A DNA stretch of 64,000 bases from Sulfurospirillum diekertiae (GTDB lineage: Bacteria > Campylobacterota > Campylobacteria > Campylobacterales > Sulfurospirillaceae), in contig NZ_CP021416.1 of the NCBI RefSeq assembly GCF_002162315.1, positions 2,058,207 through 2,122,206 of the forward strand, read 5' to 3'. Positions 22,191 through 51,703 of this stretch are shown piece after piece. The notes beneath the pieces were generated by a model that searched no databases, had not been told where the DNA came from, and worked only from the letters and a program-made list of their open reading frames with translations. Position 1 is the stretch's first letter; every line of letters starts with the position of its first letter. A program made the translations under genes and the position numbers.

Positions 22191-23385
22191 CTAATTTATG
22201 CGGTAAAGATAAAACGTTCTGACCGTTTTACCATAATAAACAATATTAATTTGTTCAAATCCTTCTTCTATCTCTTTTTGGTTCATAAGTTTATATGCAC
22301 TGCCACGTTCGATATTATAAAATTTTAGTCTAAGTGCCATTTTATCATCTTTTATTATGACTTTATGGATGTCTCTAGCTTTTAACTCATGAGCTAGTTC
22401 TTTTGCAATATTATAGTTAATTGCAAAATGTTTGGAGGGCTCATTCATAAAAGCATACAATGGTTTATTGAAAAAACTAAGCATTGTATTGATAAAAAAG
22501 TGTTATGAGCACTAAGATAAAGAAAAAATGTATGCAATTTACGAAAGGCAGGAAGTCTTACACGATAGCTATTAAAAAAGACCTTAACCATTAACGGTAC
22601 GGAGAGTACAACAAAAGGAGCAAAATCTTCAAGCAAAAGCTTTTGGCGTAACGAAAGAAGCAATGAAACGACCAGCGAAAAGAAAGAAATATACCATAGA
22701 AGATTTTTTTCTTCTTTAATTAAAATGCGATACATTGCATAGACAAAATATAAGAAAAGTAATGGCGAAAACACAATTGCATACACACCTAAAGTATCTA
22801 TAAAATAACCTCTAGGTTTTCCGCCTGTATCAAATCCATACAGATACATAGAAGCACTAAATAAAATTAGTGTCAAAATAAGCAGGTCCGTTTTGCGTTT
22901 CATCAGAGCATAAACAAACAGTGCAATGTAAAAAATAGCAAAGGAATTATCAACAAAAAGACATGCGATTAGCACAATATGAGAAGCTACTTTCCATTCT
23001 CTAAGATAGAGATACGTAAATAAAAGGCTGAAAAAGATGACAACTATACCACTGTTGACTAAAAGTGCTACACCATTAACACCTGGTAAAAAGGCATAAA
23101 TTGCAACCGAAACGATACGATCTATTCGTTTTTTTAAAAAAAAGTTTGCCAATTTTATACAGTAAAATAATGGAAGTTAAATGTAAAAGGATAAAAGGCA
23201 AACGCAGCGCAAAATCATTTTGTCCTAAAAGCTGTGTCGAATATACTGCAAGATAATGAACGAGGTCATTGCCATTGAAAAAAGTATAAGCCTCATCGTA
23301 GCTAATAGAGATACTCTGTGCACCATACGTAAGTAATGCACTACTAATAAGAAGGATAAGAAGTAAAAAAAAGTCTTTCTCTCAT
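22191..23385 (-). CDS. Polytopic glycosyltransferase-like membrane protein, broken by three frameshifts
   Basis: The ATG at 23385 overlaps the trpG/pabA stop (ATGA). Reading to 22191 needs three single-base corrections: remove one base at the A8 run 23365-23372, remove one at 23129-23143 (T7 followed by A8), and add one at A6 22494-22499. The 1195-base span is 3n+1, matching the net change. The restored protein of about 397 residues starts MRERLFLLLILLISS, then SISISYDEAYTFF (the D-E motif of GT39/ArnT-like enzymes) and LLGQNDFALRLPFILLHL, with about ten membrane helices. A mannosyl- or aminoarabinosyl-transferase-like role is a family guess. Three errors in one gene could also mean a true pseudogene. 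Confidence 0.6.
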
Positions 23386-51396: not shown

Positions 51397-51415
51397 AAAT
51401 ATAAGGAATGAGACC

Positions 51416-51660
51416 ATGAATATTGTCATATGCTACTGTACACGCTGAGGATACATGCCAAAAGCTTTCCGTGTGAAAGATGAAATAAAAAGTGCTTATA
51501 AAGACGCCAATATAACCCTTACACCAAAAACAGGTGGTTTTTTTGATGTGATCGTTGATGACATCATGATTTTTCAAAGACAGAAAAAATTGGCACGCCC
51601 ATTGAGCGCTTTCCAGAAGTGGGAGAGCTTGTTTCACTGCTTCAACAAGCAGGTTATTAG
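51416..51660 (+). CDS. SelW-like selenoprotein (CxxU), with in-frame TGA and a -1 frameshift
   Basis: A Rdx/SelW-family redox protein. From the ATG at 51416 it reads MNIVICYCTR, then TGA (51446-51448), then GYMPKAFRVKDEI. The CTR-TGA order gives the CxxU motif of selenoprotein W, so TGA is best read as selenocysteine. A second problem is a missing T at T5 (51570-51574). Adding one yields the family IFSK turn and IGTPIERFPEVGELVSLLQQ to the stop at 51658. The corrected length is 81 residues, normal for the family. AAGGA precedes the start. A TTTACATGTAAA within an 18-bp palindrome begins 2 bases past the stop. Confidence 0.85.
51452..51475 (+). promoter_or_regulatory. Candidate bacterial SECIS hairpin for selW
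   Basis: TACATG (51452-51457) pairs with CGTGTG (51470-51475), allowing G-T pairs, with a 12-base loop. It starts 3 bases after the TGA, where bacterial SelB-dependent SECIS elements lie. The stem is short, so this is tentative. Confidence 0.35.
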
Positions 51661-51703
51661 CCTTTACATGTAAAGGCATTGATACTTTTTTTAAAGGTTT
51701 TAA

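Follow-up and report, generated by a model that had tools for sequence, protein, structure and literature searches.

The window, a stretch of 64,000 nucleotides from the 2.88-Mb single-contig genome of Sulfurospirillum diekertiae, carries a gene on its forward strand (51416–51660) that is very probably a SelW-like (Rdx family) selenoprotein of the Campylobacterota type. The one-base break that interrupts its frame at a run of five T (T5) would lie outside the working of the gene, most likely as an assembly error and otherwise as a very recent loss-of-function mutation. The gene is a correctly recognised member of an already known kind. SelW genes missed in annotation were described for the Epsilonproteobacteria (Campylobacterota) together with a SECIS model (Cravedi et al., 2015; PMC4607533), translation of SelW (CJnc60) through UGA was confirmed in C. 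jejuni by Ribo-seq and proteomics in 2025 (PMC11955535), and a dedicated NCBI model exists (NF041051, SelTWH_Campy). Sulfurospirillum is not mentioned in the text of the 2015 survey, and our analysis extends the selenocysteine-containing SelW to this genus and its family.

A SelW-like gene with an in-frame TGA

Read from 51416, the frame gives MNIVICYCTR*GYMPKAF...DVIVDDIMIF and then departs from the family sequence. The family frame, MNIVICYCTRU...QQAGY, occupies 51416–51660 minus one T, and its TGA (51446–51448, +) stands at the selenocysteine position of a CTRU (CxxU) motif. The last loop and C-terminal helix of the family are found downstream of the T5 run (51570–51574, +) in the -1 frame (51577–51660, +), which translates as KTEKIGTPIERFPEVGELVSLLQQAGY and closes with a TAG at 51658–51660. 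Left uncorrected, the zero-frame product is not shorter, has a scrambled tail and ends at 51673. Judging by its sequence, TAAGGAAT (51402–51409, +), 6 nt upstream of the ATG, is the likely ribosome binding site; ATAAGGAAT is also kept in S. diekertiae JPD-1. A palindromic hairpin, GCCTTTACATGTAAAGGC (51660–51677, +), folds with 7 pairs at the gene end, is the same in JPD-1 and possibly marks the end of transcription; the terminator scan did not call it.

With both halves of the gene joined over an X, the product matches Pfam Rdx (PF10262) at 61.6 bits (E 8e-17, cut-off 22.6) and NCBIfam TIGR02174 at 43.9 bits (cut-off 34.2). It reaches 80.6 bits against NF041051, slightly below the curated cut-off of 88, and all genus members score just below that cut-off. 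A six-frame search of the whole genome returned this locus as the sole Rdx copy, with one internal TGA (E 5e-12). A chance match is excluded for the Rdx/SelW reading. Apart from the TGA, all relatives have a single continuous open frame, whereas the window copy breaks at T5; we take this break as a lesion or error within a member gene, not as the mark of another family. The Rdx and SelT/W/H profiles and the relatives thus confirm the sequence-only reading, which had proposed a SelW-like gene with an in-frame TGA in CxxU, and its coordinates proved exact to the base. The omission of such genes from annotation, which the sequence-only reading expected for this one, has already been published (PMC4607533; PMC11955535). 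Gene finders usually miss them because the selenocysteine codon resembles a stop, and the present copy illustrates cleanly how standard annotation loses one gene twice.

The gene is present in 35 of 44 genomes of the bacterial family, the window genome included, each time with exactly one TGA. In all 34 family relatives the TGA is retained and the tail is unbroken, and their match runs to the end of the model. At the level of the order, 51 of 299 genomes hold the gene, and the TGA occurs in every copy that spans the motif; the one match without a TGA begins downstream of the motif. No Cys form was found among the copies of these 299 genomes. Selenocysteine is therefore the fixed state of the SelW-like family here.

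Several relatives depart from the common pattern. Three nearly complete Sulfurospirillum genomes (G013, G014 and G027) contain selA and no detectable selW, a repeated loss of selW with selA kept. Three others (G024, G034 and G029) have selW with its TGA and no selA match; as G024 is 99% complete, its selA may be absent or diverged, or the TGA may be unreadable there. In one locus (L035, G003:C11) the selW frame lacks a stop and continues into a glycerate-kinase-like protein (463 aa), either a fusion or an assembly fault.

The thioredoxin-like Rdx fold was seen on the model of an unbroken relative. Modelled with AlphaFold (19 relatives; pLDDT 89), the JPD-1 copy has the topology strand-helix-strand-strand-strand-helix and superposes on Rdx/SelW-related crystal structures at a TM of about 0.77–0.84. 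Both the sequence profile and the fold match the Rdx structures 2fa8, 2obk, 2oka, 2p0g and 3dex as well as mouse SelW (2npb); the bacterial Rdx structures are 25–33% identical to the JPD-1 model. The product would be a thioredoxin-like protein of about 81 aa with its CxxU redox motif right after the first strand, and is probably a small thiol/selenol oxidoreductase. On the model the fourth strand ends where the break falls, and the zero-frame product is thus predicted to lose the last loop and helix. In length, in the TGA of its CxxU motif, in the apical-loop SECIS right after the TGA and in being usually unannotated, the Campylobacterota SelW (NF041051; PMC4607533) is the same as the window gene and differs by one T, which is missing in the window genome only. 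The SelW of C. jejuni belongs to another genus but is by its published description also a protein of about 80 aa read through UGA (PMC11955535).

Selenocysteine machinery and the SECIS-type hairpin

The sequence-only reading had predicted a working selenocysteine system elsewhere in the genome, and all four of its genes were located. The genes selA (2575151–2576461) and selB (2576494–2578311) adjoin each other, while selC (2500084–2500178; called by ARAGORN as SeC with anticodon tca) and selD (2516585–2517499) are sited away from this pair. A search for Fdh-alpha further recovered several formate-dehydrogenase-like genes with an internal TGA. In this strain, the UGA of the SelW-like gene would be decoded as selenocysteine by SelB and a tRNA-Sec made with SelA and SelD, the insertion being directed by a short hairpin directly past the UGA.

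Such a SECIS-type hairpin, CUUUC-CGUGU-GAAAG, lies at 51465–51479 (+). Numbered from the T of the TGA, positions 20–24 pair with 30–34, CUUUC and GAAAG enclosing CGUGU, and the loop carries the apical G expected of a bacterial SECIS soon after the UGA. Among the 33 distinct sequences collected from 37 loci, not one lacks any of the five pairs, and three pairs show changes in both partners, U-A having become C-G or A-U, and C-G having become G-C; when the partner is slid by 1–3 columns as a control, pairing drops to 51–66%. This covariation appears to be good support, yet not independent proof, because the positions are coding and the sequences related. The bare fold just past the TGA is weak and not unusually stable (z 0.38). 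The published SECIS of Campylobacterota is likewise a hairpin of 5–6 bp with an invariant loop G (PMC4607533).

Origin of the missing T

Where the window genome has ATT TTT C, its closest relatives read ATT TTT TCC (T6). The missing T that the sequence-only reading had pointed out is present in the sequence as given, but it is not a trait of the family: it is confined to the window genome as a peculiarity of the assembly or strain, all relatives being unbroken there. Each residue of the tail is also found in another genus member, so that there are no private residues after the break and four before it, and dN/dS of the tail is 0.05–0.22 against eight relatives. At a dS of about 0.36 between the flanks and those of JPD-1, we estimate that a tail free of constraint since the split from JPD-1 would have gained roughly ten replacements. 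Because conservation extends over the whole tail when it is read in the family frame, without private residues, the lesion is either very young or not real.

The missing T would most likely be a one-base homopolymer error of base calling or assembly, a reading that we prefer with modest confidence since two further genes conserved across the genus are broken at homopolymers in this assembly. The first, a PMT_2-type gene (396 aa; window 22194–23330, minus strand), has been split by three insertions of one base each, all at A runs, is 94–97% identical in protein to JPD-1 and is unbroken in every other genus member that holds it complete; it resembles a membrane glycosyltransferase, and its breaks are probable assembly errors. 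The second, a response regulator (295 aa; G000:C1:2136162–2137047, L079), is split by a change from A7 to A8, yet is 94–100% identical in protein; elsewhere in the genus, 20 genomes have it unbroken, and one genome of lower completeness has it split as well. Frame breaks were counted over 204 kb against JPD-1 and over about 60–85 kb against five matched Sulfurospirillum genomes, which have 0–1 split genes per about 60–85 kb of genes. The two homopolymer-split genes and this comparison favour an error without proving it. Most of the 50–61 neighbouring genes compared are unbroken, and the assembly is therefore not generally poor. This mostly sound assembly speaks for a real and very recent one-base deletion in T6, as do the nature of homopolymer runs as natural deletion sites and the absence of selW from several selA-bearing genus members (G013, G014 and G027), where its loss is tolerated. 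The locus would then be the young pseudogene of a dispensable selenoprotein, with a product of about 85 residues and its last third scrambled. We consider such a deletion possible, though the tail shows no decay anywhere, and the two further broken genes, one of them with three insertions, resemble base-calling error.

It seems improbable that the break is bypassed by productive frameshifting, in which the ribosome (or RNA polymerase) slips back one base on UUU at T5 and the full protein is made. The tail is conserved and a -1 slip of tRNA-Phe at T5 would be fully cognate (AUU UUU C), but an X-XXY-YYZ heptamer is absent at T5, the downstream structure is ordinary (z 0.29) and no relative shifts at this site. 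Without slippery heptamer and downstream structure, a programmed frameshift was rejected. A real T5 from which -1 slippage still yields the full selenoprotein is very unlikely; if true, UGA recoding and frameshifting would both be required within a single short gene. The missing base is not to be taken as biology without the reads.

Exchange of the selW allele in the JPD-1 lineage

The amino-acid changes that selW has accumulated relative to JPD-1 (NZ_CP023275.1, L068), which together with G016 is the nearest relative compared, would suggest an old and decaying pseudogene whose TGA is merely a stop. The divergence from JPD-1 is greater in selW than in the flanks, and with G019 as outgroup the changes are in excess at 12:0, all 12 falling on the side of the window. 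This excess stems from an allele replacement in the JPD-1 lineage, however, and the TGA and the SECIS pairs are conserved and the tail is without private residues. We regard an old pseudogene as extremely unlikely, and it was rejected on the conservation of the tail.

The replacement is seen in the disagreement between gene and flanks. The two flanking genes pair the window with JPD-1 (about 92–93% DNA identity) and place G019 far off (76–80%), whereas the selW copies of JPD-1 and G016 (L044, L052) are 91–94% identical to that of G019 (L046). In the lineage of JPD-1 and G016 the selW allele has thus been exchanged with one of G019 type, over a stretch limited to about this gene. Relaxed selection in the window lineage, considered in view of the 12:0 changes, was rejected since the flanks reveal this replacement, and the selW of the window is best read as the native copy, without acceleration.
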